A DNA stretch of 64,000 nucleotides. Origin: Skermanella rosea. GTDB taxonomy: Bacteria > Pseudomonadota > Alphaproteobacteria > Azospirillales > Azospirillaceae. The stretch's first letter is position 1. The number at the start of each line of letters is the position of its first letter. The stretch is taken from assembly GCF_016806835.2 (NCBI RefSeq), contig NZ_CP086111.1, forward strand, positions 2,181,001 through 2,245,000, written 5' to 3'. This document shows, piece after piece, positions 2,262 to 30,080 of the stretch. The notes under the pieces were generated by a model that was given only the letters and a program-made list of their open reading frames with translations, did not search any database and was not told the DNA's origin. The position numbers were made by a program, and so were the translations under genes.

Positions 2262-3583
2262 GAGAGTGTCAGGAATTTCGTGTGAGGGCGGGCGGTTTCG
2301 CATGATCAGGCGAATGCCTTTGTGAAGCGCTCACCGAAGAGGACGGCGAACTGAGCCTTTGCCATGGCCCATTCGCGTGCCGGCATGGTCCACTGTTTCT
2401 CGGTCCTGTGCAAGACCAGGAAGATCAGCTTCAGGGCGGCATCGTCAGTCGGGAAGTGGCCTCGGGCGCGAACGGCCCGGCGGAGCTTGGCATTCAAGGA
2501 TTCGATGGCGTTGGTGGTGTACAGGATGCGCCGGACCTCGGCCGGGAAGGCGTAGAACGGCACCACCTCGTTCCAGGCGCGGCGCCAGCACGGGCCGATG
2601 GCCGGATACTTGCGTCCCCAGGCGCTGTCCTCGAAGGCTTCCAGCGCGGCCTCGGCGGCCGTGGCGTCGATCGCCCGGTAGATGTCCTTCAGGGCGGCTG
2701 CGACGGCCCGGCGGTCCTTCCAGGAGACGAACTCCAGGCTGTTGCGCAGCAGGTGCACGATGCAGGTCTGGACCATGGCCTGCGGGAACACCGCCTGGAT
2801 GGCGTCGGGAAAGCCCTTCAGCCCGTCGACCACGGCGATCAGGATGTCCTCCACGCCGCGGTTGCGCAGCTCGTTCAGGACACGCAGCCAGAACTTGGCG
2901 CCCTCGTTCTGCTCCAGCCACAGGCCGAGGATCTCCTTGGTGCCGTCGGCCCGCACACCGAGGGCCACGTGGACGGCCTTGTTGCGGACCAGTCCCTCGT
3001 CGCGGACCTTGACCCGCAGGGCGTCGAAGAACACTAGCGGGTAGACCGGCTCCAGCGGCCGGGCCTGCCAGGTGGCGATCTCGTCCAGCACGGCGTCGGT
3101 CACGGCGCTGATCAGGTCGGGCGAGACCTCCACGCCGTAGAGTTCGCGCAGGTGCCCGACGATCTCCCGGACGCTCATGCCGCGGGCATACATCGATACG
3201 ATCTTGTCGTCGAAGCCCGGAAAGCGCCGCTGGTACTTGGCGATGAGCTGCGGATCGAAGGTCGCCCGCCGATCGCGCGGGATCTCCAGTTCCAGCTTGC
3301 CGGTGTCGGTCAGCACCGTCTTGCGGCCGTAGCCGTTCCGGCCGTTGCCGGCCTCGTCCTCGCCGGCGAGATGATGGTCCATCTCGGCATTCAGCGCCCG
3401 CTCGGCAAGTGCCTTCTTCAGGCCGTCCAGAAGGCCGTTCGGATCGAACGCGCTCTTCGCGTCGGACCCGGCAAGAAGTTGGTCGAGCAGGGCGTCAGGG
3501 ATGACGGGTGGTTTGCGACGAGCCATGCGGGATCTCCTTTTCTCCCAGTATGCCCGCCCTCACACGAAATTCCTGACACTCTC
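2262..3583 (-). mobile_element. Complete IS256-family insertion sequence
   Basis: The 1322-bp element is bounded by inverted repeats that match perfectly for over 25 bases, beginning GAGAGTGTCAGGAATTTC at the left with its exact complement at the right. It carries one intact transposase on the minus strand. The identical 9-bp flanks and intact gene indicate a recent, simple insertion into the IS5 remnant. Confidence 0.95.
2306..3526 (-). CDS. IS256-family transposase
   Basis: Intact 406-aa mutator-type DDE transposase. The three catalytic acids can be placed in VFFDALRV (about residue 167), VVDGLKGF (about 233) and TTNAIESLN (about 341). The motif TCIVHLLRNS, typical of IS256 transposases, is present. 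The gene fills the element, starting about 57 bases inside the right end, and its length is normal for the family. No frameshift or premature stop is seen, so it should be active if expressed. Confidence 0.95.
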   Translation of the reverse strand: MARRKPPVIPDALLDQLLAGSDAKSAFDPNGLLDGLKKALAERALNAEMDHHLAGEDEAGNGRNGYGRKTVLTDTGKLELEIPRDRRATFDPQLIAKYQRRFPGFDDKIVSMYARGMSVREIVGHLRELYGVEVSPDLISAVTDAVLDEIATWQARPLEPVYPLVFFDALRVKVRDEGLVRNKAVHVALGVRADGTKEILGLWLEQNEGAKFWLRVLNELRNRGVEDILIAVVDGLKGFPDAIQAVFPQAMVQTCIVHLLRNSLEFVSWKDRRAVAAALKDIYRAIDATAAEAALEAFEDSAWGRKYPAIGPCWRRAWNEVVPFYAFPAEVRRILYTTNAIESLNAKLRRAVRARGHFPTDDAALKLIFLVLHRTEKQWTMPAREWAMAKAQFAVLFGERFTKAFA

Positions 3584-5613: not shown

Positions 5614-7353
5614 TTACGCGGTCGTCCGGTTCGGCAAGGCCAGATCCTGCGCTTCGTGCAGTCGTTGGTAAAGGCCGCCGGCCCGGATCAGGCTTTCGTG
5701 TGCCCCCTCCGCCGCGATCCCGCCGCCGTTGATGACGACGATCCGGTCGGCGTCGCGGATCGTGGCCAGACGATGGGCGATGATCAGCGAGGTGCGGCCG
5801 CGGGCCAGTTCCTGCAGGGATGCCTGGATCGCCCGCTCGGTCTCGGTATCCAGGGCGGAGGTCGCCTCGTCCAGGATCAGGATCGGGGGATTCTTCAGGA
5901 AGATGCGGGCGATCGCGACGCGCTGCTTCTGTCCGCCCGAAAGCTTCACGCCACGCTCGCCCACGATCGTGTCCAGGCCGTCGGGGCAGTCGGCGAGCAA
6001 TCCGTCCAGCCGGGCGCGATGGGCGGCCTCCAGGATCTCGCTTTCCGTCGCGTCCAGCCTGCCATAGGCGATGTTGTCGCGCAGGGTGCCGGCGAACAGG
6101 AAGACGTCCTGCTGCACGATGCCGATCTGCTGGCGCAGGGACGCCAGAGTCAGGTCGCGGATATCGTGGCCGTCGATCGTGATCCGCCCCCTGTCGACCT
6201 CGTAGAAGCGCGGCAGGAGCGACAGCAGGGTGCTCTTGCCCGCCCCGGAAGGTCCGACGAACGCGACGGTTTCGCCGGCGCGGACCGACAGCGAAACGCC
6301 GTCGAGGACCGGCCGGGCCGGATCATAGCCGAAGCGCACGCCCTCGAAGGCGACGGCTCCCTTGAACGCCGGTGCCGCGACGGCGCCGGGACGGTCGGTG
6401 ATCTCGGGTTCGGTGGCCAGGAACTCCTGGTAGCGGCGGAACCCGGCTATTCCCTTGGGATAGTTCTCGATCACCGCCGCGATCCGCTCCAGCGGCTGGT
6501 AGAAGACGTTGATCAGCAGCAGGAAGCCCACGAACTCGCCGATGCTCAGGCTCCCGGCATGGACGAACCAAGTCCCGGCTACCAGCACGACGACCTGGAC
6601 CAGCCGCATGCCCAGGTAGTTCAGTCCCAGGCTATAGGCCATGATACGGTAGCCGTTGAGCTTGGCTTGCCTGTACTGGCCGTTGTCCTTGGCGAACATG
6701 GCCCGTTCGTGGGCCTCGTTGGCGAACGCGCGGACGACCCGCGCTCCGCCGACGACCTCCTCGATCCTGGCGTTGAACGCGCCGACGCGGTCGAACTGGG
6801 CATGCCAGTTGGCCGTCATGTCCCGTCCGAACCGCAGCACGATTACCATGACCACCGGCACGATCAGGAGCGTGATCAGCGCCAGCTGCACATGCACCGA
6901 CATCATCAGCGCCAGGGCGCCGAGGAAGGTCATCACGGCGATGAACAGGTCCTCCGGCCCGTGGTGGGCCAGTTCGCCGATCTCCTCCAGATCCTTGGTG
7001 AGGCGGGCTACGAGGTGCCCGGTCTTGTTCTGGTCGAAGAATCGCAGCGGCAGCCGTTGCAGGTGGTCGAAGGCGCGGCGGCGCATCTCGGTCTCGATGC
7101 TGATGCCCAGCACGTGGCCCCAGTAGGTCACGACGGCGATCAGGCCCGTGTTCACCAGGTAGACCGCCAGCAGGCCGACGCTCGCCAGCAGGATCAGCTC
7201 CCAGTCGCCCTTGGGCAGCAGGTGGTCCACATAAGCCGTCACCGCGAAGGGAAAGCCCAGGGAGAGCAGGCCGGACAGGATCGCCCCGCCGAAATCCACC
7301 AGGAACAGCCGGCGGTGCGGGCCGTAATAACTAAAGAAGTCCTTCAACACCAT
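5614..7353 (-). CDS. ABC exporter, fused membrane and ATPase domains
   Basis: A 579-aa half-transporter starting MVLKDFFSYYG. The N-terminal ~320 residues hold six predicted membrane helices (ABC exporter type 1). The C-terminal ATPase shows Walker A GPSGAGKST, a Q-loop, signature LSGGQKQR, Walker B ILILDEATSALD and the H-loop IIAHRLATI, all intact. It would act as a homodimer in the inner membrane. Its start lies 125 bp downstream of the FecI-type sigma factor on the same strand, which points to siderophore export or another iron-linked role. That role is inferred from context; MsbA-like exporters have broad substrates. Confidence 0.85.
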   Translation of the reverse strand: MVLKDFFSYYGPHRRLFLVDFGGAILSGLLSLGFPFAVTAYVDHLLPKGDWELILLASVGLLAVYLVNTGLIAVVTYWGHVLGISIETEMRRRAFDHLQRLPLRFFDQNKTGHLVARLTKDLEEIGELAHHGPEDLFIAVMTFLGALALMMSVHVQLALITLLIVPVVMVIVLRFGRDMTANWHAQFDRVGAFNARIEEVVGGARVVRAFANEAHERAMFAKDNGQYRQAKLNGYRIMAYSLGLNYLGMRLVQVVVLVAGTWFVHAGSLSIGEFVGFLLLINVFYQPLERIAAVIENYPKGIAGFRRYQEFLATEPEITDRPGAVAAPAFKGAVAFEGVRFGYDPARPVLDGVSLSVRAGETVAFVGPSGAGKSTLLSLLPRFYEVDRGRITIDGHDIRDLTLASLRQQIGIVQQDVFLFAGTLRDNIAYGRLDATESEILEAAHRARLDGLLADCPDGLDTIVGERGVKLSGGQKQRVAIARIFLKNPPILILDEATSALDTETERAIQASLQELARGRTSLIIAHRLATIRDADRIVVINGGGIAAEGAHESLIRAGGLYQRLHEAQDLALPNRTTA

Positions 7354-7478: not shown

Positions 7479-7994
7479 TCAATCCCGTTCGGCGCGGGAG
7501 ATCGTGTCGAGGAAGTGGCCCATCGCCAGCTTCATGTCGTTGAAGACGGTACCCTGGGAAATGCCGAGATGGTCGGCGATCTTCGGATAGGACCAGCCCT
7601 CGACCCGATTGAGGACCCACACCTTGCGAGCCCGCTCCGGAAGCGTCGCGAGTGCGCCCTTGAAGTTGTTCAGGCGCTCCCGGTGGAGCAGATGGTCCTC
7701 GGCCGAGGGGGTTTCGGAGGCGATCTCCAGCGCATCGAACGTTTCGGGCGGACAGATCTCGAACCGCTCCCGCGTCTTTCGCCGTCTCAAGTGATCGAGC
7801 GCCAAGTTCTGGACCGTACGATGCAGGAACGCGCCAACATTGTCGATCGACCCGCTCTCCGCCGCCTTGTGGGCCCGCAGATAGCTTTCCTGAAGCACGT
7901 CCTCGGCCGTGTGGAGATTTCGCACGACCCTCATGGCGCGCCCGAGGAGGGAATGGCGATGATCGAGATAGATGGCGTTCAAACTTGCGGGCAT
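7479..7994 (-). CDS. fecI: FecI-type ECF sigma factor
   Basis: A 171-aa protein starting MPASLNAIYLDHR, chosen because AAGG lies 6 bases upstream; an ATG five codons earlier (8009) is possible. Region 2 is seen in RAMRVVRNLHTAEDVLQESY and region 4 in LPERARKVWVLNRVEGWSYPKIADHLGISQGTV, with helix-turn-helix features. Length and motifs match ECF sigma factors of the FecI group, which direct polymerase to siderophore-receptor promoters on a signal from FecR (family knowledge). It is divergent from fecR across a region holding a Fur-box-like palindrome, so iron repression is likely. Confidence 0.85.
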   Translation of the reverse strand: MPASLNAIYLDHRHSLLGRAMRVVRNLHTAEDVLQESYLRAHKAAESGSIDNVGAFLHRTVQNLALDHLRRRKTRERFEICPPETFDALEIASETPSAEDHLLHRERLNNFKGALATLPERARKVWVLNRVEGWSYPKIADHLGISQGTVFNDMKLAMGHFLDTISRAERD

Positions 7995-8135
7995 GGTCAG
8001 CCTTATCATGCGTTGCAGGCGCACCTTTCGCGTCGCGGCGGGAGATTTGCCTGCCTGTCCCGGGACTGTTCGTTCCCGGGGGCCTGTGGGATCGTTGCCG
8101 CGAAGCCTTGCCAGAATTACCGACCCTCTGCAACT

Positions 8136-8154: not shown

Positions 8155-8248
8155 AGGGCGGGCGAGCCCGCAGCCTCCGTGCAGAAATCTCCTCCGCATA
8201 ATGTGTTGTGCATCCCCAGGGACGTCTAAGCTATATACATACCCGGAA

Positions 8249-9265
8249 ATGGAACGGTGGATGACCCGAGTGGAGCAGAGAGAAGCGGACCGTCCGGGTA
8301 GTGCCGGAAACTACCGTCACCCCGATTCGATCACCGACGCGGCACTTTCCTGGTTCGTGGCGCTTCAGGACGGAACCGCCGATCCGGAGACCCTGGCGGC
8401 CTATGATGAATGGCGCCGCAGCGATCCCCGTCATGGTCCCGCCTTCGACTTCGTCGCGGGCGTCGGTGGAATGCCGGAACTGCGCTCCGCGACACTTGCC
8501 AGTCCCGAGGCGTCCGCGCTCCGGACCCGTCCGGCCCGGAAGCCGTCGCGAAGCCTGTGGTGGGCCTCGCTCGCGGCGGCGTCGGTGATCCTGGCGGCCG
8601 GCTTCCACCGGCTGCCCGCCATGATGCTGCGATGGAACGCCGACTACCTGACTGATGCCGGCGACCGGCGGGAGGTTGCTCTGCCCGACGGTTCGCGCCT
8701 CCTGCTCGACTCCGCTTCCGCCGTGGCGCTCGATTTCGGCGAGGGACGGCGAAACGTCCGCCTGTTGCAGGGGGACGCGTTCTTCGACGTAGTCCCCGAC
8801 CGGGCGAGGCCGTTTCGCGTGACCGGCAGTTTCAGCACCGTCGAGGTCACCGGAACCGCCTTCGCCGTTCATTCCGACGGGGTGGAGGATGCGATCTTCC
8901 TGGAGAAGGGCCGGATCGCCGTCGGCGGGCCGGGCGGTGCCGGGCTGCCCCTGATTCTCGAGCCCGGCGAAAGGGTGACGGCCACGGAAGGCGGGCTGTC
9001 CGCCGCCGTCCGGATGGATCCGGCCGTGGCGCTCGCTTGGCGCGAGGGCCGCTATGTTTTCCACGAGCAACCGCTCGGCGAGGTGATCGACAACCTGCGC
9101 CGCTACTACGCGGGAACGATCCTGGTGCTCGCCCCCCGGATCGACGAAGAACTGGTGAGCGGGAATTACCGGCTGGACGACCCGGTCGGCGTGCTCCGGT
9201 CGCTCGCCGGGGTCGCGGGCGCGAGCCTGACCGTCCTGCCCGGAGGGGTCGTCATCCTCGCCTGA
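8249..9265 (+). CDS. fecR: FecR-type anti-sigma regulator
   Basis: About 338 aa from the ATG at 8249 (MERWMTRVEQ); the ATG at 8261 is an alternative. The N-terminal cytoplasmic part has the FecR N-terminal helical domain (DAALSWFVALQDG...LAAYDEWRRSDPRHGPAF). One membrane segment follows (SLWWASLAAASVILAAGF), then a periplasmic FecR domain (DAGDRREVALPDGSRLLLDSAS) and a C-terminal domain related to the secretin/TonB short domain. It passes the signal from the ligand-loaded outer-membrane receptor to FecI. It is followed 106 bp later by the receptor, as expected for such a system. Confidence 0.88.
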   Translation: MERWMTRVEQREADRPGSAGNYRHPDSITDAALSWFVALQDGTADPETLAAYDEWRRSDPRHGPAFDFVAGVGGMPELRSATLASPEASALRTRPARKPSRSLWWASLAAASVILAAGFHRLPAMMLRWNADYLTDAGDRREVALPDGSRLLLDSASAVALDFGEGRRNVRLLQGDAFFDVVPDRARPFRVTGSFSTVEVTGTAFAVHSDGVEDAIFLEKGRIAVGGPGGAGLPLILEPGERVTATEGGLSAAVRMDPAVALAWREGRYVFHEQPLGEVIDNLRRYYAGTILVLAPRIDEELVSGNYRLDDPVGVLRSLAGVAGASLTVLPGGVVILA

Positions 9266-9371
9266 TCTTTTTTTGTGAGACCCGCCCGCTCCGGACGTCT
9301 GGCTGGATGGGGAGGCGCACAGCCGCGTGCGACCGCTCCCCGACGCCAGCATAAGACGGGAGTTGCAGGGA

Positions 9372-11705
9372 ATGGATTGCCGGACGGGTGTAGCACCTGA
9401 AGTTTCGACGCGCGTAAGTGAGAAGGCCGCCCGGCATCTGATCCTGGCCCTGATGGCATCGACGGCCCTGGGTTGTGCCCTGACGATCCCCTCGGCCGCC
9501 TCGGCCCAGCAGCAGGCGCCGGCCGGCACCGCGGTCGGCCCCGTCGACTTCGCGATCCCGGCGCAGCCGCTCCAGGCGGCGCTGGACAGCTTCATCCGCC
9601 AGACCGGCTGGCAGGTCGGTTATCCCAGCGCCCTGGCTGCCGGCCGCACGTCCCGGCCCGTCGTCGGCGCCATGCCGCCCGCCCAGGCCCTGGAAACGCT
9701 GCTGGCCGGGACGGGAGTGGGGTTCCGAATGGCCGGATCGGCGACAGCCTCCCTGGTCTCGACGCAGGCACCGGCCCAGGCGAGTGCGGAAGGGGCGGCG
9801 ATACCGGCGGGAGCCTTGATGCTCGACCCGGTCACCGTCTCCGGTTCAACCGGCGGCTGGGGAGTCGGCCGGACTACGATCACCGCGCAGGACCTGGAGC
9901 GGAGGAATCCCACGAGCCTCCAGCAGGTTTTCGCCGGGGAACCCGGCATCCGGGTCGGCAGTTCCGTGCCGATGTCCCAGAAGGTCTATGTCAACGGCGT
10001 CGAGGAGACCAACCTCGCCGTCAGCATCGACGGCAGCCGCCAGAACAACAAGGTGTTCCACCACAACGGCACGACCCTGATCGACCCAAGCTTCCTGAAG
10101 GTCGTCCGGGTCGACGCGGGCGTGGCGCCGGCCGATGCGGGGCCCGGTGCGCTGGCGGGGGCCATCGCCTATGAGACGAAGGACGCGCGCGACTTCCTGT
10201 CCGAGGATGGTGTCGGGGCCTTTGTCAAGTCGACTCTCAACACCAACGGGCCGGTCCTGACGACCAACCTGGCCGGTTACGGGATGCAACAGGGGCTGGA
10301 AGCCCTCGGATACGTCAACTACGGCAAGGGCGGCAGGTTCAAGGCGGGCAACGGCGACGAGGTGGCCGGCACCGGGACCGACATCGTGAGCGGGCTCGGC
10401 AAGGCCGCCATCGAGACCGACGGCGGCAACCGGTTCCAGATCAGCTACGAGCGGGTCTACGACGATGCCGCCCGGCCGTTCCGGGCCAATGTCGGCGGTA
10501 TCGCGGGGCGCCCGCCCTGGGAACCGAAGGTTCGCGACTATACCCTCGATCGGCAGAATACGGTCTTCACATATACCACCACCCAGCCGACGGACCTCTG
10601 GGATCCGAAAGTGGTGATGGCCTATGGCCGCACCGACGTGGAAACGCCGATCTTCCTGCGTCCGGTGCCGCCAAGCACCGTTCCCGGCAGCTTCCCCGGC
10701 AAGGGAAAGACGGACTCGCTCAACGGCAAGGTCGAGAACCGGTTCTCCTTCGGCTTCGGATCGATCACGGCCGGCACGGACTTCTACCGGGACGAGGGCA
10801 CCTACGGGGACGAGACCTTCTCCGCCACCGAGAAGGCGAACAATTTCGGCCTCTACGCCCAGGCCCGGGTCGAGCCGTGGGAGCGCCTGCGCCTGTCCTT
10901 CGGCCTGCGCGGCGACCGGCAGAAATTCGAGGGAACTACCGGGGAGGAGTGGACCAATTCCGGCATCAGCCACAACGCTTCGGGCGAATTCGACCTGATC
11001 CCCGAATTCCTGACCGCCAAGGCGGGATATTCCCACTCCTGGGCGGGCATCCCGCTGGCCGAGAACTTCATCATGAACAGTGCTTGGCGCTACGGCACCG
11101 GGCCTGAGCCGGCGACCGCGGACAACGTGACAGCCGGCCTGGAGGCCCGCTACCAGGGGTTCACGGTCGAAGGACGGGTCTTCCGGACCGATATCGACGA
11201 CGCCCGGGCCGCGCGGTTCGCGGTTGCCAGCGCCACCCTCAGCCGCGACGTCGAGTCGAAGGGCTATGAGCTCGGGGCCGGCTATTCGTGGAACGAAGGC
11301 TATGTCCGTGCCAAGTTCGCCGACATCGACGTCACCATCGATGGCCAGCCCGCGGATTCGGACACCGGGACCTATCTCGCCACGCCGATGGGGCAGATCA
11401 TCACCCTGGGCGGCGCCCAGTCCATCGCGACCTGGGACATGACCGTCGGCGCGGATATGGAGATCGTGCTGGACTACGACGAGGTCCAGGCCGGTCAGCG
11501 CCCGCTGGACGGCTACGAGGTGTTCAACGTCTTCGCGGAGTACCGGCCGGCCCAGTATTCGAACCTGAGCTTCCGGCTCGACGTCCGCAACCTCTTCGAT
11601 GCCACCTACGCGGACCGGGCGACCTACGGGCAGGAATTCGGGACGGTCACGCCGCTCTACCAGCCGGGCCGGTCCTTCCTGATCAGCGCCTCGGCCAAGT
11701 TCTGA
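9372..11705 (+). CDS. TonB-dependent siderophore receptor with STN signalling domain
   Basis: About 777 aa from the ATG at 9372, which has GGGA just upstream. A signal peptide ends near SAASA-QQQ. The mature N-terminus is an STN domain (VDFAIPAQPLQAALDSFIRQTGWQVGYP), found in FecA-like transducers that contact FecR. The plug domain follows (TITAQDLERRNPTSLQQVFAGEPGIRVG), then a 22-strand-type barrel, with DVRNLFDATY and a terminal aromatic in SASAKF. It should import the ferric siderophore across the outer membrane using TonB energy and trigger FecR/FecI signalling. The biosynthesis genes begin 53 bp later, so the cognate ligand is probably their product. Confidence 0.9.
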   Translation: MDCRTGVAPEVSTRVSEKAARHLILALMASTALGCALTIPSAASAQQQAPAGTAVGPVDFAIPAQPLQAALDSFIRQTGWQVGYPSALAAGRTSRPVVGAMPPAQALETLLAGTGVGFRMAGSATASLVSTQAPAQASAEGAAIPAGALMLDPVTVSGSTGGWGVGRTTITAQDLERRNPTSLQQVFAGEPGIRVGSSVPMSQKVYVNGVEETNLAVSIDGSRQNNKVFHHNGTTLIDPSFLKVVRVDAGVAPADAGPGALAGAIAYETKDARDFLSEDGVGAFVKSTLNTNGPVLTTNLAGYGMQQGLEALGYVNYGKGGRFKAGNGDEVAGTGTDIVSGLGKAAIETDGGNRFQISYERVYDDAARPFRANVGGIAGRPPWEPKVRDYTLDRQNTVFTYTTTQPTDLWDPKVVMAYGRTDVETPIFLRPVPPSTVPGSFPGKGKTDSLNGKVENRFSFGFGSITAGTDFYRDEGTYGDETFSATEKANNFGLYAQARVEPWERLRLSFGLRGDRQKFEGTTGEEWTNSGISHNASGEFDLIPEFLTAKAGYSHSWAGIPLAENFIMNSAWRYGTGPEPATADNVTAGLEARYQGFTVEGRVFRTDIDDARAARFAVASATLSRDVESKGYELGAGYSWNEGYVRAKFADIDVTIDGQPADSDTGTYLATPMGQIITLGGAQSIATWDMTVGADMEIVLDYDEVQAGQRPLDGYEVFNVFAEYRPAQYSNLSFRLDVRNLFDATYADRATYGQEFGTVTPLYQPGRSFLISASAKF

Positions 11706-11758: not shown

Positions 11759-13543
11759 ATGCCTTCAACTCAGCAGATCGCCGAGCAAGTCACCTTCCAG
11801 AGTTTCGCCAACTGCTACTGGCGGGAGATCGATGCCGGCAGATCGGCCCGGCATACCGTGCCGGACGGCTCGGCGGTCGATTGCGTCGAGTGGACCCTGA
11901 CCTCCCAGCGGGCGGTCCTGCGCAGCGAGATCGTCACCCGGTCGCTGTGCGGGCCGAGCTGCTTCGGCAGGCTCTGGACCCGGTCCCTGGCGGACAGCGT
12001 GTGGCAGCAGGTCGAGCCGTTCTCCGCCCTGTGCTCGCTGGCACGGGAAAGCTACGGTCAGGTGCGGGCCGAAGGCGCAGCCGATCTCCGGGACAGCGAG
12101 CTGGAACTCCTGCTCCGGGTACTCCAGAGCTACCAGTCGGTGCGTTGCTATCTCGATGCGAACCGGGATTGCCCCGCCGCGGCGGACGATTTCATCGCCG
12201 CGGAGCAGTCGCTCGTGTTCGGCCACTGGCTTCACCCGACGCCCAAGAGCGTGCAGGGCATGACCCCCTGGCAGCAGCCGTGCTACGCTCCGGAACTGCA
12301 CGGGCGGTTCCGGCTCCAGCTCTTCGCCGTCGCGGCGGACCATGTCAGCCACCGCTCCGCTTTCCGGCGAACCGCCCCGGAGATGATCGCCGATGCGCTG
12401 GGGACCGACGCCGGCCGGTTCGATCTTGCCGCAGGCGAGCAGATCATCCCCATGCATCCGCTCCAGGCGGAAGCGTTGCTGCTCGATCCTGCCGTCCAGG
12501 CCCTCCAGGCGCGGGGCGTGCTTCGGGCGCTGGGGCAGGGCGGGCCGTGCTTCACGGCCACCTCTTCGGTGCGTACGGTCTACAGCCCCGACAGCCCGTG
12601 GATGCTCAAATTCTCGCTGCCGGTCCGGATCACCAACTCCGTAAGGGTCAACCGGCGGCACGAGTTGGAAGCCGGCGTCATCATGGCGAAGCTGATCGGC
12701 TCCATCGGACCTTCGCTCGGGCAGCGTCTCCGCTTCCTGCTGGACCCTGCCTACATCACGCTGGAGGCGCCGGGCGGCGGCGAGAGCGGGTTCGAGGTGA
12801 TCATCCGCGAGAACCCGTTCTCCGGCGGCCGGCAGAACGGGATCGTCGCCATCGCCGCCCTCGCCGCCGACCCTCTGCCGGGGCAGGTCTCGCGGCTGGA
12901 GCGGATGGTCCGGCGCGTCGCGGCGGCGCACGGCTGGCGGCCGAAGGAAGCGTGCCGCCACTGGTTCGGCCGGTATCTCGCCTGCGCACTGGAACCTCTC
13001 GTGAGGTTCTATGACGAGCACGGGATCGCCCTGGAAGCCCATCAGCAGAACGGCTTGCTGGACATCGGAGAGGGGCTGCCGAGCCGCTTCCACTACCGCG
13101 ACAACCAGGGATTTTACCTGTGCAACTCGTACCGGGAGTCGCTGAGGCGGCATGCCCCGGAGGCCGACAACCTGCCGTCGCTCTATTACGACGAGGACGA
13201 GATCAACAGGCGCTTCTCCTACTATGCGATCGTCAACCAGGTCTTCTCGGTGATCGCCCGCATGGGCAAGGACGGCCTGATCGACGAGGAGGACCTGCTG
13301 CGCATCCTGCGCGGGCATCTGGAATTCCTGGCGCCGCAGATGAGGTGGGCCGGGCGGTCCTTCGTCGGCGGCCTGCTCGACAGCCCGACGATCGGTGCGA
13401 AGTTCAACCTCACCGCTCGGCTGCTCGATATCGACGAACTGCGGACGGCGAACGAGGCGGCGCTCTACGCGCACCTGCCCAACCCCCTGTGCGGGCTGGC
13501 GGTCGAGGACTCCGGAAGGGAACGCCATGCCCTTACCCCTTGA
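11759..13543 (+). CDS. asbA: IucA/IucC-family NIS siderophore synthetase (AsbA-like)
   Basis: A 594-aa protein starting MPSTQQIAEQ. It has the family hallmarks FGHWLHPTPKS (residues 154-164), PMHPLQ (231-236), TATSSVRTVYSP in the nucleotide-binding part, EAHQQN, and a C-terminal ferric-reductase-like region. These enzymes adenylate a citrate carboxylate and condense it with an amine. In petrobactin assembly AsbA joins citrate to spermidine (established for Bacillus anthracis); assignment here rests on first position in an asbABC-DE-F-like operon. Its 3' end overlaps the next gene by 17 bp. Which synthetase acts first is not provable from sequence. Confidence 0.85.
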   Translation: MPSTQQIAEQVTFQSFANCYWREIDAGRSARHTVPDGSAVDCVEWTLTSQRAVLRSEIVTRSLCGPSCFGRLWTRSLADSVWQQVEPFSALCSLARESYGQVRAEGAADLRDSELELLLRVLQSYQSVRCYLDANRDCPAAADDFIAAEQSLVFGHWLHPTPKSVQGMTPWQQPCYAPELHGRFRLQLFAVAADHVSHRSAFRRTAPEMIADALGTDAGRFDLAAGEQIIPMHPLQAEALLLDPAVQALQARGVLRALGQGGPCFTATSSVRTVYSPDSPWMLKFSLPVRITNSVRVNRRHELEAGVIMAKLIGSIGPSLGQRLRFLLDPAYITLEAPGGGESGFEVIIRENPFSGGRQNGIVAIAALAADPLPGQVSRLERMVRRVAAAHGWRPKEACRHWFGRYLACALEPLVRFYDEHGIALEAHQQNGLLDIGEGLPSRFHYRDNQGFYLCNSYRESLRRHAPEADNLPSLYYDEDEINRRFSYYAIVNQVFSVIARMGKDGLIDEEDLLRILRGHLEFLAPQMRWAGRSFVGGLLDSPTIGAKFNLTARLLDIDELRTANEAALYAHLPNPLCGLAVEDSGRERHALTP

Positions 13544-15245
13544 CCTGCCCGGCCGGGCTGACGAGCGGGTCCTGAGGCAGCTCGTCGGCGCGCTGCTGTT
13601 CGAACGGGTGCTGGAGGCCCGGACGATCGAGGTGGACGGAAGCCCGGGCCTCGAATGGGAGTCGGGCGGCGTGCAGTTCCGGTGCAGCGGCTCCGCCGGA
13701 CCGTTCGGGCGTTTGCGGATCGTCCCGGGATCGGTCCTGATGCGTGTGCCGGGCGGGCAGTGGGTGCCCGCCGACCCTCGCCCTCTGGTCGAAGGCTTGG
13801 CGACGCCCGCTGCGTACAAGGTGGCACTGCTGGCGGAACTGGACCGCACGGTGGCGCTGTGCCGGTGGAACGACGCCAACCTGCCCCGGACGCCGCGCCG
13901 CGGGATGCCCTTCGCGGACCTGGAAGGCGCGTTGGAGGAGGGCCATCCCTATCATCCCTGCTTCAAGGCCCGCCTCGGTTTCGACGAGGACGATCATGCC
14001 GCCTTCGGACCCGAGGCGGGGCGGAGCTTCAGGCTGGTCTGGCTGCTGGTCGAGCGCTCCCGCCTGCACCAGAACCTGGGCGGCGACGAGGAGGCGTTCT
14101 GGCGCGCCGAACTGGGCGGCAGGATCTGGGAAGAGCTCGAGGCGCGCCGGGCCGCCGCCGGCAGGAGTGCTGCCGACTACGGCTTCCTGCCCGTCCATCC
14201 CTGGCAATGGCGCGCTCTCCGCGACCGCGAACTGGCAGGCTGGTTGGCCGACGGGCGCGCGCACGTCCTGGGGCCACTCGGCGACCGCTATCGCGCCAGC
14301 CAGTCGGTCCGGACGCTGATGAATGTCGACGATCCCCGCAGGGCGGACGTGAAGCTGGCGATGAACATCGTCAACACGGCCTCGCGCCGGATCATCACGC
14401 CCCATTCGGTCTGCACCGGGCCGGCGATCTCCCGCTGGCTGACCGGCGTCGTGGAGTCCGACCCGTTCTTCGATCAGGTCTGCCCGTTCACCCTGCGGAC
14501 GGAATATGCCGGCATCATCGCCGACCGGGACGGGCCGCTCGCCGGGCAGCTGGCCGTGCTCTGGCGGCGCAGCGTCGCCGAAACCCTGGGTGCGGGAGAG
14601 GCGGCGGTTCCCTTCAACATGCTGATGGTCGTGGAAAGCGACGGCGAACCCTTCATCTCGGAATGGGTCGGGAAGTTCGGCCTGCTTCCCTGGCTGGACC
14701 GGCTTTTCGAGACCGCGATCCTGCCGGTCTGGCATCTCCTGGTCTGCCACGGCATCGCGGTCGAGGCGCACGGCCAGAACATGGTCCTGGTCCACCGGGA
14801 CGGCTGGCCGCAGCGGCTGATCCTGCGCGACTTCCACGAGAGCGTGGAGTACGTCCCCGACTTCCTGAAGGACCGGGAGAGCGTGCCGGACTTCGCCGCT
14901 CTGGATCCGGTCTACCGCGACGCTCCCCCCGACCGGTACTACTGGTCGGATCGGGTGGACGCCCTGCGGGAACTGGTGATGGACACCTTGTTCATCTACA
15001 ACCTGACCGAAGTATCCCATCTCCTGAACCTTCATTACGGCCTGCCCGAACCGGTGTTCTGGCGGAAGGCCCATGACTGCCTCGAGCGCTACGCCCGGCG
15101 GCAGGGCCTGGAGGAACGCCATCGGCGGATAGGGCACGCGGCGCGGGAAATACTCACCGAGTCCCTGATGAGAGGAAAACTGCTCAATGCAACGGAAGAA
15201 CTTCACCATCCGGTCCCGAACGTCTTCGCGGATTTCCGGGGCTGA
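13527..15245 (+). CDS. asbB: IucA/IucC-family NIS siderophore synthetase (AsbB-like)
   Basis: A 572-aa protein starting MPLPLDLPGR, preceded by GGAAGGGA. Family motifs are GHPYHPCFKARLGF (139-152), LPVHPWQW (221-228), SQSVRTLMNV, KLAMNIVNTASRRI, EAHGQN and RDFHES, all intact. In the petrobactin pathway AsbB adds the second amine arm to the citrate core. It differs clearly from the upstream synthetase, so the two are not a recent duplication. It overlaps asbA by 17 bp and precedes the adenylation enzyme by 36 bp, so the genes should be translated together. Confidence 0.86.
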   Translation: MPLPLDLPGRADERVLRQLVGALLFERVLEARTIEVDGSPGLEWESGGVQFRCSGSAGPFGRLRIVPGSVLMRVPGGQWVPADPRPLVEGLATPAAYKVALLAELDRTVALCRWNDANLPRTPRRGMPFADLEGALEEGHPYHPCFKARLGFDEDDHAAFGPEAGRSFRLVWLLVERSRLHQNLGGDEEAFWRAELGGRIWEELEARRAAAGRSAADYGFLPVHPWQWRALRDRELAGWLADGRAHVLGPLGDRYRASQSVRTLMNVDDPRRADVKLAMNIVNTASRRIITPHSVCTGPAISRWLTGVVESDPFFDQVCPFTLRTEYAGIIADRDGPLAGQLAVLWRRSVAETLGAGEAAVPFNMLMVVESDGEPFISEWVGKFGLLPWLDRLFETAILPVWHLLVCHGIAVEAHGQNMVLVHRDGWPQRLILRDFHESVEYVPDFLKDRESVPDFAALDPVYRDAPPDRYYWSDRVDALRELVMDTLFIYNLTEVSHLLNLHYGLPEPVFWRKAHDCLERYARRQGLEERHRRIGHAAREILTESLMRGKLLNATEELHHPVPNVFADFRG

Positions 15246-15281
15246 AGGGACAGGGACCCTTCCGGACGATCGAGGTGCCGC

Positions 15282-16532
15282 ATGATCCGGATCGACGACA
15301 TGGTCCACGGCCGCACGGAGATCGAGGACCGGGCGGCGCGGTTCGCGGATCAGGCGGGCCTTTCCGGCCGCCCCGGCGTCCGGTTCGCCGCATGCTTCAG
15401 CGAAACGATCGACTGGCTGGCCCTCTTCTTCGCCGTCCGGGCCGCCGGCGGCAGCCTGTTGCCGCTCCATCCCAGCACCCCGCCCGTGGCGGCGCGGCGC
15501 ATGGCGCGGGAAGGGGGCTGCCGCTTCCTGTTCCTCGACGGCATGACGCCCGAGGAGATCGCGCCCGAGGCGGTGGCCGGGGATACCGGCCAGCTGGTGC
15601 AGATGAGTTCGGGCACCACGGGCGCTCCGAAATACATCGCCCGGAACTGGGCCGACATTGACCGGGAGATCGAGAGCTATGTCGGCCATTTCCGCGAGCC
15701 GGAGGGCATGACCCCGGTGATCGCCTGCCCGACCACCCATTCCTACGGGCTGATCTGCGGGCTGCTGGTCGGGCTTCGGCGGGGAGCGGAGCCGCTGATC
15801 CTGAATACCGGGAACCCGAAATACATATTGAAGAAACTGGCCGAGTTGGAACGGCCGCTGCTCTACTCGTCCCCGGTGATCCTCCAGGCGCTGGCGAAGC
15901 TGCTTCCGGAGGGAGGGAAGATCCACGCCGCCATGACCTCCGGATCCTTGCTGCCCGACCCCTGGTTCGCGCGGATCCGCCTCAAGACCCGGCACCTGTA
16001 CCAGCAGTACGGCTGCTCCGAGGCCGGCTGCATCGCCGTCAATCCCGACATGACCTCATCGAACGACATGGGCCTGCCGCTCCCGCATCATCGGCTGCGG
16101 ACCGGCACCGGCCCGGACGCTCCGGAGGAGATCGTCGTCGAGGGTCCCGACGGGGAGATCCGCACCCGCGACCTGGGCTACCGGAGGCCGGACGGCATGC
16201 TGGTCTTCATCTCCCGGCTGGACGACACGATCAACGTCTCGGGCCTGAACGTCTATCCCAAGGATGTCGAGGACGTGGTGATGGCGCTGCCCGGCGTCAC
16301 GGACGCGGTCGCCTTCCGGAAGGCGGATCCCTTCGCCGGCGAGCGGGTCGGCCTGGTCTTCAGCGCCACCGGGCCGGTGTCCCACCAATCCATCCGCGCC
16401 TGGTGCCGGGAGCATCTGGCGGCCCACCAGCAGCCGACCGAGATCTTCCAGGCCGACGCCCTGCCGCGCATGGCGAACGGCAAAATCAGCCGGCGCCAGG
16501 TGGCGGAGTCCTACGCGGGGGCCGGCCGATGA
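15282..16532 (+). CDS. asbC: Aryl-acid AMP ligase (AsbC-like)
   Basis: A 416-aa ANL-superfamily enzyme starting MIRIDDMVHG with CGAGGTG upstream. It shows the phosphate-binding loop MSSGTTGAPK (108-117), YGCSEAGCIAVN, the ribose-binding Asp in TRDLGYRRPDGML, and a C-terminal lysine motif NGKISRR. It is shorter than ordinary acyl-CoA synthetases (about 500-550 aa), as is AsbC. The expected reaction is adenylation of 3,4-dihydroxybenzoate and loading onto the carrier domain encoded next. Its stop overlaps the start of the next gene (ATGA). Substrate choice is inferred from operon context. Confidence 0.82.
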   Translation: MIRIDDMVHGRTEIEDRAARFADQAGLSGRPGVRFAACFSETIDWLALFFAVRAAGGSLLPLHPSTPPVAARRMAREGGCRFLFLDGMTPEEIAPEAVAGDTGQLVQMSSGTTGAPKYIARNWADIDREIESYVGHFREPEGMTPVIACPTTHSYGLICGLLVGLRRGAEPLILNTGNPKYILKKLAELERPLLYSSPVILQALAKLLPEGGKIHAAMTSGSLLPDPWFARIRLKTRHLYQQYGCSEAGCIAVNPDMTSSNDMGLPLPHHRLRTGTGPDAPEEIVVEGPDGEIRTRDLGYRRPDGMLVFISRLDDTINVSGLNVYPKDVEDVVMALPGVTDAVAFRKADPFAGERVGLVFSATGPVSHQSIRAWCREHLAAHQQPTEIFQADALPRMANGKISRRQVAESYAGAGR

Positions 16533-17845
16533 GACGGGAAGAAGTCGTCGAGGCCATTCGCACCGTCCTGCGGGACCACCTCCAGAACCAGCACCTGCAT
16601 CTGTTCGGCCCTTCGGCCCGGCTGAACGAGGACCTCTACATCGACTCCATCCTCATGATGGAAATCTTCCTCCAGTTGGAACTGTCGTTCGACCTCTCCG
16701 TGCCGGATCATGTCATGACCTCGCGGGAACTGGCGACCGTCGCGGATCTGGCGGGCCTGTTCGCGGAGGAGGAAGCCGCTCCGCCGGCCGCGCCGGAACC
16801 CCCGCCGGGAAGCGTCCACGGCGAGGAGTATGTCGATATCAAGGTGCATTGCTTCGTCAGTTCCGTGTGCGACGCCCTGAAGCGCACGCCGGGCATCGAC
16901 CACCGGCCGTTCTACTTCGGTGTCTGGGACGCCGATTTCGCGATCGGCGACGGCACGCCGGGCAAGGAGTGGACGCTGCTCTACCACGCCCCATCCGTCA
17001 GCCACGACTTCTTCCGCCACTGGTTCCGGCGCCTCTACGGGCCGGAGGTCCGGGAATGGTACGACAGGAACCGGAGCAAGTCCGAGAACCTGACTACCCT
17101 GTTGGACCTCGTCGAGACCAGGTCCGACACGCTGAGCGTCATGGCGATGGTGGATCTCCATCACCTGCCCGAACGCGAGAACAAGTTCAACCAGAACCCG
17201 TTTCCCCATTATCTCATGCTGGAGAAGTCGGCCGATCCGGAGGTCTTCTTCGTCTCGGACCCCGATTTCCGCTGGGAAGGCGAGATCGCGAAAGAGAAGA
17301 TCGTCCATGCCTTCTGCCAGCCGACGGTCGGCGGCGGGTTCGCGTTCGACCGGAGGGAGATCCAGGCTCCGGCGGCCGAGGACCTGAAAGCCTACTTCGA
17401 AGCCTGTTTCCAGCCCGACGCCAATCCGCTGACCGCCGCGGTCCGCCGGATCGTGGCGACGCACCTCGCGGGAAAGGACGGCCGGAAGCCGAGGGACCTC
17501 GGGGCGGCGCTGCGGGAACTGCCGGTCATCTCGATCCGGAAATACGCCTACGAGCACGGGTTCGCGTTCTTCTGGCGCGCCCTCGGCCTGCCCGACGAGA
17601 CGTTCCTGGTCCATTGCGACAGGATCGAGGAGCTGATCCAGGGTTTCAAGGCGCTGCACTACGCCGTCCTGCGGCTTGCCGAGACCGGCGACACCGGCCT
17701 CGCCGCCGACATGTTCGAGCGGCTGGACCGGCTGGACCGGCTCGAATTCGCCGTCAAGGCGGCACTCGGTGCCGTCTTCCGGTCCTGGTGCGAGGCGAAC
17801 CGACTTTCCGACGATCGACGCCGGCGCGACGCCGAGGTGGCCTGA
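16529..17845 (+). CDS. asbDE: Fused aryl-carrier and condensing protein (AsbD-AsbE-like)
   Basis: A 438-aa protein starting at an ATG that overlaps the previous stop. Residues 1-85 look like an acyl/aryl carrier domain with the phosphopantetheine Ser in EDLYIDSILMMEI (Ser40). A Pro/Ala-rich linker (about 86-98) joins it to a ~340-residue domain resembling AsbE/BtrH-type acyltransferases (DIKVHCFVSSVCDALKRTPG...HRPFYFGVWD). In B. anthracis, AsbD and AsbE are separate proteins that carry 3,4-dihydroxybenzoate and transfer it to spermidine. Here they are one polypeptide with no frame break at the junction. The fusion is read directly; its function is inferred from the family and operon. Confidence 0.8.
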   Translation: MRREEVVEAIRTVLRDHLQNQHLHLFGPSARLNEDLYIDSILMMEIFLQLELSFDLSVPDHVMTSRELATVADLAGLFAEEEAAPPAAPEPPPGSVHGEEYVDIKVHCFVSSVCDALKRTPGIDHRPFYFGVWDADFAIGDGTPGKEWTLLYHAPSVSHDFFRHWFRRLYGPEVREWYDRNRSKSENLTTLLDLVETRSDTLSVMAMVDLHHLPERENKFNQNPFPHYLMLEKSADPEVFFVSDPDFRWEGEIAKEKIVHAFCQPTVGGGFAFDRREIQAPAAEDLKAYFEACFQPDANPLTAAVRRIVATHLAGKDGRKPRDLGAALRELPVISIRKYAYEHGFAFFWRALGLPDETFLVHCDRIEELIQGFKALHYAVLRLAETGDTGLAADMFERLDRLDRLEFAVKAALGAVFRSWCEANRLSDDRRRRDAEVA

Positions 17846-18747
17846 TGAAGATCTCGCTCTGCACCATCACGTTCCGCCATCACCTGCTGTCGCTGGAGGA
17901 CCTGGCGGTCTGGGCGCGGGCCAACGGCTTCGAGGGCATCGAGCTGTGGGGCGCCCACGCCCGGAACATGGCGCACGATCCCGGGCGGAACGCCGCCTGG
18001 CTGGCCGGGTTCGGCCTGTCCGTCCCGATGCTGAGCGACTACCTGCCGCTCGACGGGGACACGGGCGACCTGATGCGCAAGACGGCAGATCTCTGCCGCC
18101 TGGCGCAGCGCTGGCGGGCGGGTAAGATCCGCACCTTCGCCGGCGGCACCGGAAGCCGGGAGACGCCGACGGCCCGGCGGGCTTTCATCGCCGACCGGCT
18201 GCGCATGATATGCGACTACGCCGCCGCCCACGGCCTGTCGCTCCTGGTCGAGACCCATCCCGGGACGCTGGCGGACAGTCTGGCGGCGACGCGCGCCCTG
18301 ATCCGGGCGGTGGACCATCCCGCCTTGGGGATCAATTTCGACGTGCTGCACGTGTGGGAGGGCGGCGACGACCCGATCGAGGCCCGCCGGGAGCTGCGCC
18401 CCCATATCGGCCATTACCACCTGAAGAATATCCGCTCGCGGGCGGACCTGACGGTGTTCGAGCCCGCCAACGTCTATGCCGCGGCGGGGCGGCGCGACGG
18501 GATGGTGCCGCTGTTCGACGGCATGATCGATTACCGCGCCTTCCTGGCCGAGATTTCCGGCGATCCCGACGCCGAAGCCTCGCTCGAATGGTTCGGCAAC
18601 GATTGCCACGAGACCCTGCGCCGGGACCGTCTCGCCATCGGCGGCGAGCGGGACCGGCACCGGAGGCCGGACGCATCGCCCGCCGCGCGCCGGCCGGCCC
18701 CGCCGGACCGTTTCGCCGGGGTCGCGGCCGGGGAGGGCCGGCCTTAG
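17845..18747 (+). CDS. asbF: 3-dehydroshikimate dehydratase (AsbF-like)
   Basis: A 300-aa TIM-barrel protein of the sugar-phosphate isomerase/epimerase superfamily, starting [20 protein letters not shown]; its ATG overlaps the previous stop by one base. Likely metal ligands are E136 (VETHPG), D166 ([11 protein letters not shown]), H192 (GHYHLKN) and E248 (SLEWFG), spaced almost exactly as the Mn ligands of B. anthracis AsbF as I recall them. It converts 3-dehydroshikimate to 3,4-dihydroxybenzoate, the catechol of petrobactin. A ~45-residue charged tail rich in Arg, Pro and Ala extends beyond the barrel. It is the last gene of the operon and overlaps the nuoD stop from the other strand by two or three bases. 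Confidence 0.85.
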
Positions 18748-19949
18748 CGGTCGATCTCGCCGAACACGATGTCGATGGAGCCGATGATCGCCACGGCGTC
18801 GGCCAGCATGTGCCCCTTGGCCATGGCGTCGATCGCCTGGAGATGGGCGAAGCCGGTTCCGCGGATCTTGCAGCGGTAGGGCTTGTAGGTCCCGTCCGCG
18901 ATCAGGAACACGCCGAACTCGCCCTTGGGCGATTCCGTCGCCGTGTAGGTTTCCCCGGGCGGGACGTGGAAGCCCTCCGTGTAGAGCTTGAAGTGGTGGA
19001 TAAGCGCCTCCATGGAGCGCTTCATCTCGCCCCGGCGCGGCGGGGACACCTTGTGGTCCTGGACCCGCACCGGCCCGTCCGGCAGTTGCTCCAGGCATTG
19101 ACGGATGATTCGGTTGCTCTGCCGCATCTCGTCCATGCGCACCAGGTAGCGGGCGTAGCAGTCCCCGGTGAGCCCGACCGGAACGTCGAAGTCCATCTTG
19201 TCGTAGACGTCGTAGGGCTCGGCCTTGCGCAGATCCCATGGAACGCCGGAGGCGCGGAGGCAGGGACCCGTGAAGCCCCAGTCGAGCGCCTCGGCCTCGC
19301 TGACGATGCCGATGTCCACCGTCCGCTGCTTGAAGATCCTGTTCTCGGTCAGCAGGTTCTCCAGGTCGTCGACGAACTTCGGGAACTGCTCGGTATAGGC
19401 CCAGATGTCGTCGGCCAGGCCCGCCGGCAGGTCCAGGTTGACGCCGCCCGGGCGGAAATAGTTGGCGTGGAGCCGGGCGCCGGATACCCGCTCGTAGAAC
19501 CCCATCAGTTCCTCGCGCTGCTCGAAACCCCAGAGCGACGGGGTGATGGCGCCGACGTCGAGCGCGTAGGTGGTGATGTTCAGCAGGTGGTTCAGGATGC
19601 GGGTGATCTCCGCGTACATCACCCGGATGTACTGGGCCCGCGGCGGTGCCTGGATGCGCAGCAGCTTCTCGATGGCGAGCACGTAGGTGTGCTCCATGCA
19701 CATCGGGGAGACATAGTCGAGCCGGTCGAAATAGGGGATGGACTGGAGATAGGTCTTGTACTCCATGAACTTCTCGGTCCCGCGGTGGAGCAGGCCGATA
19801 TGCGGGTCGCAGCGCTCGACGACCTCGCCGTCCATTTCCATGATGAGGCGCAGGACGCCGTGGGCCGCCGGATGCTGCGGCCCGAAATTCATGGTGTAGG
19901 TCTTGATCTTGCCGGGCTCGGCGGCGTTGGTCGCTGTCTGGACGGCCAT
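18744..19949 (-). CDS. nuoD: NADH-quinone oxidoreductase subunit D
   Basis: A 401-aa 49-kDa-type subunit with the typical [60 protein letters not shown] and [14 protein letters not shown] blocks. Length and sequence are normal for alphaproteobacteria. The ATG overlaps the nuoC stop (TGATG); a GTG one codon earlier is an alternative. It would form the quinone-binding part of complex I with subunits B and C. Only nuoC accompanies it here. The usual nuoAB and nuoE-N neighbours are absent, so this is probably an extra copy or a split locus. Confidence 0.95.
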
Positions 19950-20590
19950 CACTTGTTGCTCCCCGGCTGGTCCTGCCCCGTCGGCGCCTCGGCTTTCTCG
20001 TCCCCGGCCAGCATGACGTTGGTCATGCCCTCCCAGGGGCTGAGGAAGTCGAAGGTCCGGAAGTCCTGCTGGAGCTTCACGGGTTCGTAGACCACCCGTT
20101 TCTGTTCGTCGTCGTAGCGCATCTCGACGTAGCCGGTCAGGGGGAAGTCCTTCCGCATGGGATGCCCCTCGAAGCCGTAGTCGGTCAGGATGCGGCGCAG
20201 GTCCGGATGGTCGGAGAAGAACACCCCGAACAGGTCCCAGATCTCCCGCTCGAACCAGTTGGCGACGGTATAGACGCCGGTGATCGAAGGGACCGCCGAG
20301 TCCTCGTCGGTGCTCAGCTTGATCCTGATCCGCTGGTTATGGCGCAGGCTGAGCAGGTTGTAGACCACGTCGAACCGCTCTTCGCGCTGGGGATAGTCGG
20401 CGGCGGTGATGTCCATCATCTGCTGGAACTGGCACATGGCGTCGTCGCGCAGGAACGTCATGACCTTGACGGTGTCCCTCCGCTCGATCCGGAGGACCAG
20501 TTCGTTCAGCAGAACCTCCGCCGACCGGACTGCGCCGGGCAGGCTTGTCCGGATGTGGTCTCCGAGCTTCTGAAGCGCTTCCGTATTCAT
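19949..20590 (-). CDS. nuoC: NADH-quinone oxidoreductase subunit C
   Basis: A 213-aa 30-kDa-type subunit starting [14 protein letters not shown]. It contains the family signature region [41 protein letters not shown], conserved in complex I subunit C. The C-terminal 20 residues are variable and acidic. It is translationally coupled to nuoD. An upstream stretch of about 110 bases separates it from nagA on the same strand and probably carries its promoter. The pair is complete, not degenerate. Confidence 0.95.
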
Positions 20591-29831: not shown

Positions 29832-30080
29832 ATGAGCGATCGGAGGCCGGCGAGCCCGGAGATCTGGCAGACTGTTCCGGCGGATCGGAAGTCCCACCTG
29901 ATCCGTCTCCTCGCCGGCATGGCCTGCCGCACCCTGGCGGTGCCCGAACCGTCGACGGAGGCGCCTCATGAGCACAATCACGGCTGTGGTCGCCGGACGC
30001 GACGGCGGCAAGCTGACGGCGGACCACTTGACCCGGTCGGCCGTCGTCTATGTCCGCCAATCGACCCTCCAGCAGGTTGA
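29832..30080 (+). CDS. Small ORF upstream of serine recombinase
   Basis: 82 codons starting MSDRRPASPEIWQTVPADRK, with AGG upstream of the ATG. The first ~35 residues (WQTVPADRKSHLIRLLAGMACRTL) look like a short helical protein often seen immediately before large serine recombinases in proteobacterial elements, as I recall. The 3' part overlaps the recombinase start by 113 bases and is probably under weak constraint. It may be a directionality or accessory factor, which is a guess. Confidence 0.4.
   Translation: MSDRRPASPEIWQTVPADRKSHLIRLLAGMACRTLAVPEPSTEAPHEHNHGCGRRTRRRQADGGPLDPVGRRLCPPIDPPAG

Follow-up and report, generated by a model that had tools for sequence, protein, structure and literature searches.

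Petrobactin-family loci and the Skermanella rosea operon

The methylolanthanin, rhodopetrobactin and roseobactin loci have been described as encoding the aryl carrier AsbD fused to the acyltransferase AsbE (Zytnick 2024, PMC11317620), petrobactin-like pathways have been reported in Alphaproteobacteria (PMC8776838), and a Methylorubrum strain has been found to make rhodopetrobactin B from a similar cluster (PMC13251462). A stretch of 64,000 nucleotides from the alphaproteobacterium Skermanella rosea, which is related to Azospirillum (contig NZ_CP086111.1, positions 2,181,001 to 2,245,000 of the forward strand; hereafter 'the window') carries an operon of the same kind at 11759-18747, on the plus strand. 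Given the published fusion and the alphaproteobacterial pathways already on record, this locus represents a further example of a described type, and extends the petrobactin family to one more genus of Alphaproteobacteria. A first-pass annotation, made from the letters of the sequence, had proposed a petrobactin-type operon with genes in the order asbA, asbB, asbC, asbDE and asbF, and both the order and the assignment are borne out by the open frames and by family matches.

Taken as a whole, the region is read, with a probability of roughly 0.8, as an iron-responsive siderophore locus of the petrobactin family (that is, independent of non-ribosomal peptide synthetases, NRPS), with a non-acetylated homospermidine product and with cysteine-transferase, export and signalling steps. 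In such a pathway AsbF would convert 3-dehydroshikimate to 3,4-dihydroxybenzoate, AsbA and AsbB would join two aryl-polyamine arms to citrate, an ATP-binding cassette (ABC) exporter would secrete the siderophore, and a TonB-dependent receptor would return the ferric complex and signal via FecR to a sigma factor.

The enzymes of the petrobactin pathway are all represented: two NRPS-independent siderophore (NIS) synthetases, AsbC with an aryl carrier, an AsbE of the DUF6005 family, and an AsbF with its metal ligands. The first NIS synthetase, AsbA (11759-13543, 594 residues), contains IucA_IucC and FhuF domains and has IucA (E 4.1e-41) and AcsD (E 2.8e-33) as its closest solved relatives; the second, AsbB (13527-15245, 572 residues), matches the solved AsbB 3to3 at E 3.7e-100. 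The aryl-acid adenylating enzyme AsbC (15282-16532, 416 residues) scores 525.7 bits against NF006167, above the cut-off of 513, the label of that model being that of a generic acyl-CoA synthetase only. The dehydratase AsbF (17845-18747, 300 residues) matches the solved AsbF 3dx5 at E 1.3e-73 and, numbered from the ATG at 17845, possesses all four of the metal ligands (E136, D166, H192 and E248) that had been listed for it.

The asbDE gene (16529-17845) encodes carrier and AsbE-like transferase as one protein of 438 residues, as originally claimed. The top NCBIfam match of the carrier domain (residues 1-80, 16529-16768) is the AsbD model NF005798 (residues 1-81, E 3.3e-18), at 65.9 bits and thus below the curated cut-off of 100, and its Pfam PP-binding score of 17.7 is likewise below the threshold of 20.8. 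The phosphopantetheine serine, Ser40 (codon 16646-16648), occupies its annotated position in the motif DLYIDSIL and is kept in 33 of 33 fused relatives. A profile search of 16529-17845 matched residues 103-430 to DUF6005 at E 1.4e-141 (471.7 bits against a Pfam cut-off of 25), and the remainder of the protein (residues 99-438; domain at 16835-17842) does therefore correspond to AsbE. The description of five overlapping genes stands at three junctions (17 nucleotides at asbA/asbB, 4 at asbC/asbDE and 1 at asbDE/asbF) but fails at the fourth, where a gap of 36 nucleotides separates asbB from asbC.

Predicted product

The genome encodes a homospermidine synthase (E 7.7e-173 to a solved homospermidine synthase), and a profile search of the genome gave no match to the spermidine synthase family, whereas 11 of 14 control genomes did match it in the same search. 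That homospermidine synthase is also the sole match in the genome to PF16653, a family to which carboxyspermidine dehydrogenase presumably belongs, so that no carboxyspermidine dehydrogenase from that family is present.

Acetylation was considered using a set of 85 loci, comprising the window, 80 loci (the best 80 of 190 relatives, which biases the set toward near relatives) and 4 plasmid loci. The GNAT acetyltransferase of the mllH type, which is tied to acetylated (homo)spermidine (PMC11317620), was found in six of these loci, all from Rhodopseudomonas or Methylobacterium, and is absent from the window's cluster. A genome search, accompanied by positive controls that included a Rhodopseudomonas match of 71%, found no close relative of it (the best match being 30% identical, E 2.9e-11). 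A DUF2218 gene is likewise absent from the window, with one copy elsewhere in the genome.

The presence of a homospermidine synthase, together with the lack of a spermidine synthase match and of a close acetyltransferase, leads to the expectation of non-acetylated homospermidine arms. The siderophore polyamine is thus probably homospermidine rather than spermidine, and the gene content predicts a non-acetylated, homospermidine-linked petrobactin (C36H54N6O11, theoretical [M+H]+ 747.392), most likely a des-acetyl relative of rhodopetrobactin. The polyamine of such siderophores may follow the polyamine genes of the host. The citrate-spermidine-3,4-dihydroxybenzoate product of the first-pass annotation is upheld in its petrobactin type and in its complete AsbF, and is doubtful in its spermidine.

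Authentic petrobactin, with two spermidine arms, would agree with the closeness of AsbB and AsbF to petrobactin enzymes and with a cluster that has no acetyltransferase. Spermidine could moreover be imported, or could arise as a minor product of homospermidine synthase. This product is nonetheless unlikely, since the spermidine synthase family is unmatched, the PF16653 search returned no carboxyspermidine dehydrogenase, and the fused relatives that make rhodopetrobactin and methylolanthanin place homospermidine in those products (PMC11317620; PMC7857480).

Far less probable still is that the cluster yields either acetylated rhodopetrobactin or methylolanthanin, a lanthanide chelator built on 4-hydroxybenzoate. 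The DE fusion, the sigma-FecR-TonB arrangement and the homospermidine synthase are shared with those systems, the cluster with which strain AM1 produces methylolanthanin likewise includes an AsbF-like gene (PMC11317620), and CtaG, the nearest fold to AsbE among the structural matches listed, acts on 4-hydroxybenzoate (PMC6772006; structure entry 9qvq contains PHBA). However, the genome has no close relative of the acetyltransferase, the cluster has an intact AsbF but no DUF2218 gene, and rhodopetrobactin B, rather than methylolanthanin, was the product of strain PA1, whose cluster is similar (PMC13251462). As a separate observation on those products, the [M+H]+ of rhodopetrobactin B is given as 831.4228 in the legend to Fig. 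3 of PMC13251462, versus 831.4135 calculated for C40H58N6O13; methylolanthanin with two additional oxygens also gives 831.4135.

The AsbD-AsbE fusion

The survey of related genomes that the first-pass annotation had called for found D and E in one open frame in all 85 loci, the window included. Genome searches gave a set of 15 loci that partly overlaps the 85, and in every one of these the carrier is in frame with AsbE. A phylum sample of 398 genomes, less biased but small in its yield, gave four matches besides the window's genome, each of them fused. The first-pass annotation had treated the fusion as remarkable in its own right; three characterised loci that have it are already published (PMC11317620), and its novelty is ruled out by that paper and by these surveys, which indicate that it is common among proteobacterial members of the petrobactin family, and no curiosity.

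The linker between the two domains (residues 81-102, 16769-16834) spans 22 residues and is disordered in the predicted model, with a predicted local distance difference test (pLDDT) value below 50 throughout; in relatives it is variable in length and rich in Ala and Pro, and the distance from Ser40 to His107 ranges from 62 to 82 residues across the 33 fused relatives. The first-pass annotation had suggested that the fusion could enforce direct transfer from carrier to transferase; the disorder in the model and the variable spacing are more in keeping with a tether than with a rigid channel. Those same properties also agree with a functionally neutral fusion, in which the carrier would serve the transferase equally well whether supplied separately or joined to it and the joining would fix only stoichiometry and expression, as do the completeness of both domains and the separate yet working AsbD and AsbE of Bacillus (as the first-pass annotation noted, and as PMC11317620 implies). 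The fused state of all 85 loci, across many genera, suggests by contrast some advantage, and neutrality is given an even chance.

Other fusions were also encountered. The asbB and asbC genes are fused in six of the 85 loci (L068, L071, L072, L076 (Shinella), L089, L097 (Methylobacterium)), an arrangement that PMC11317620 attributes, among characterised loci, to mll only. Long open frames in Azospirillum had hinted at a fusion of C to DE, which was rejected because those frames are high-GC read-outs in another frame. In one genome of the genus (G365), the alignment of asbB (L129 8199-9910) is split into two segments that differ in frame, which looks like a frameshift or an error in the sequencing.

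A candidate mechanism for AsbE

A single predicted model displays a papain fold over residues 106-417, with CtaG and CcbD among the structural matches listed and BtrH not among them. Four residues, Cys108 (16850-16852), His227 (17207-17209), Asp244 (17258-17260) and Asp246 (17264-17266), are invariant in 33 of 33 fused relatives and lie on the expected elements of that model. At the level of sequence, no link between AsbE and CtaG, CcbD or BtrH was found, the profile search having returned designed coiled coils only, and neither the carrier nor DUF6005 matched Pfam BtrH_N at E values up to 10.

In the mechanism proposed here, AsbC would activate 3,4-dihydroxybenzoate and load it on Ser40 of the AsbDE carrier; the tethered papain-fold AsbE would then take the aryl group onto Cys108, with His227 as the base and either Asp244 or Asp246 orienting it, and would pass that group from the cysteine to the terminal amine of the polyamine. 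The hitherto unassigned chemistry of AsbE probably runs via an acyl-cysteine. The identity of AsbE as DUF6005, and of DUF6005 as papain-like, are each separately in print, and literature searches found no publication linking AsbE to a papain-fold cysteine acyltransferase mechanism. The full proposal, namely that the operon makes an undescribed non-acetylated bis-homospermidine petrobactin and that AsbDE is a self-contained papain-fold cysteine aryl-amide synthase with its own carrier and with a fold related to those of CtaG and CcbD, is a tentative one, given somewhat less than even odds; if true, it would provide a catalytic mechanism for the step performed by AsbE throughout the petrobactin family.

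Distribution of the cluster

Among the genomes searched, 2 of 289 in the class sample, 12 of 82 in the family and 5 of 398 in the phylum sample have DUF6005 (the window's own being included each time), as do three of five in the genus. Two more members of the genus have the same block of exporter, sigma factor, FecR, TonB receptor and asbA-B-C-DE-F, and in them asbA-F share 87-94% amino acid identity with the window and the four upstream genes 78-98% (one exporter over residues 1-137 only); these matches, and the common gene order, argue that the operon is neither a chance assembly of genes nor an artefact of sequence assembly. Among plasmids, 71 records match, the match covering 80% or more of the fused protein in 70 of them, and the cluster is also carried by an Azospirillum soli contig. 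Siderophore terms do not occur in PMC11767975.

The asbF gene is missing from 20 of the 85 loci, one of which (L083) ends just after DE. The other 19, with a fused DE and enough flank, are L030, L031, L032, L039, L043, L045, L059, L061, L078, L081, L082, L084, L086, L088, L090 and L092-L095. A search for AsbF elsewhere in 11 such genomes gave best matches of E 5.8e-7 or weaker, and none in four of the 11, against 5.5e-140 for the positive control. Clusters of this type must draw their aryl acid from another enzyme, or use another acid; with 19 such loci, the aryl acid of many of these clusters is not to be assumed.

Neighbouring genes

Upstream of the operon, an MsbA-like ABC protein of 579 residues (5614-7353, minus strand; Pfam ABC_membrane and ABC_tran) is the candidate siderophore exporter, a role suggested by its linkage to the operon. 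The two other cluster-bearing genomes of the genus have it beside the operon, with 95-98% identity (in one, over residues 1-137 only), and relatives 87-90% identical lie at the edge of three Azospirillum loci (L019, L021 and L057). A FecI-like extracytoplasmic function (ECF) sigma factor (7479-8009, minus strand; Sigma70_r2 and r4_2) is 92-93% identical in two genomes of the genus, and is followed by a FecR anti-sigma factor (8201-9265, plus strand; PF04773, E 6.2e-18) and by a TonB-dependent receptor with Plug, beta-barrel and N-terminal STN signalling domains (9327-11705, plus strand), the start of which is likely to be the ATG at 9372. Scans of the window for promoters and terminators gave no signal above the level of shuffled sequence.

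No siderophore importer gene was found in the window. A second iron-uptake-like set elsewhere in the same genome (L118 1014-8928; G000:C1:3801001-3816000), comprising a long upstream open frame, a protein 41% identical to an Azospirillum siderophore-binding protein and permeases at approximately 50%, could possibly supply one.

Directly behind asbF lies a second nuoD-nuoC pair, encoding complex I subunits (18744-19952 and 19949-20590, both on the minus strand), the nuoD of which shares 83% identity with the genome's other full copy (C1:2323238). Such a pair also adjoins asbF in genome G364 and is absent in G365, where an amidohydrolase gene follows asbF. The window also contains a Mutator-family transposase (2306-3526, minus strand) and a large serine recombinase (29968-32097, plus strand), and no tRNA genes were found in it.

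Comparison with known systems

The window's cluster shares with the rhodopetrobactin locus of Rhodopseudomonas palustris and the mll locus of Methylobacterium extorquens AM1 the asbA-B-C-DE-F order, the fused DE, and the accompanying sigma factor, FecR and TonB receptor, and the homospermidine synthase of its genome fits the homospermidine arms of rhodopetrobactin and methylolanthanin. Unlike those loci, it has neither the GNAT acetyltransferase nor DUF2218, and has a linked ABC exporter; its asbB and asbC are separate, whereas those of mll are fused. With the petrobactin asbABCDEF clusters of Bacillus, and of Alteromonas and Marinobacter, it shares all six activities, with AsbF and AsbB close to the solved proteins of B. 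anthracis, and it differs from them in the D-E fusion, in polyamine genes that point to homospermidine, and in its Gram-negative uptake and signalling genes. In Azospirillum, the DUF6005 clusters (A. lipoferum 4B plasmid AZO_p2; L014) display the same order and fusion, with identities of 67-78% over tonB and asbA-F, but carry DUF2218 and, where enough flank is available, a siderophore ABC importer, both of which the window's cluster lacks. With CtaG, CcbD and BtrH, from closthioamide, celesticetin and butirosin biosynthesis respectively, AsbE would share the use of a carrier-bound thioester as the donor of an acyl group to an amine; it is distinguished from all three by having its own carrier in cis and by its membership of Pfam DUF6005.
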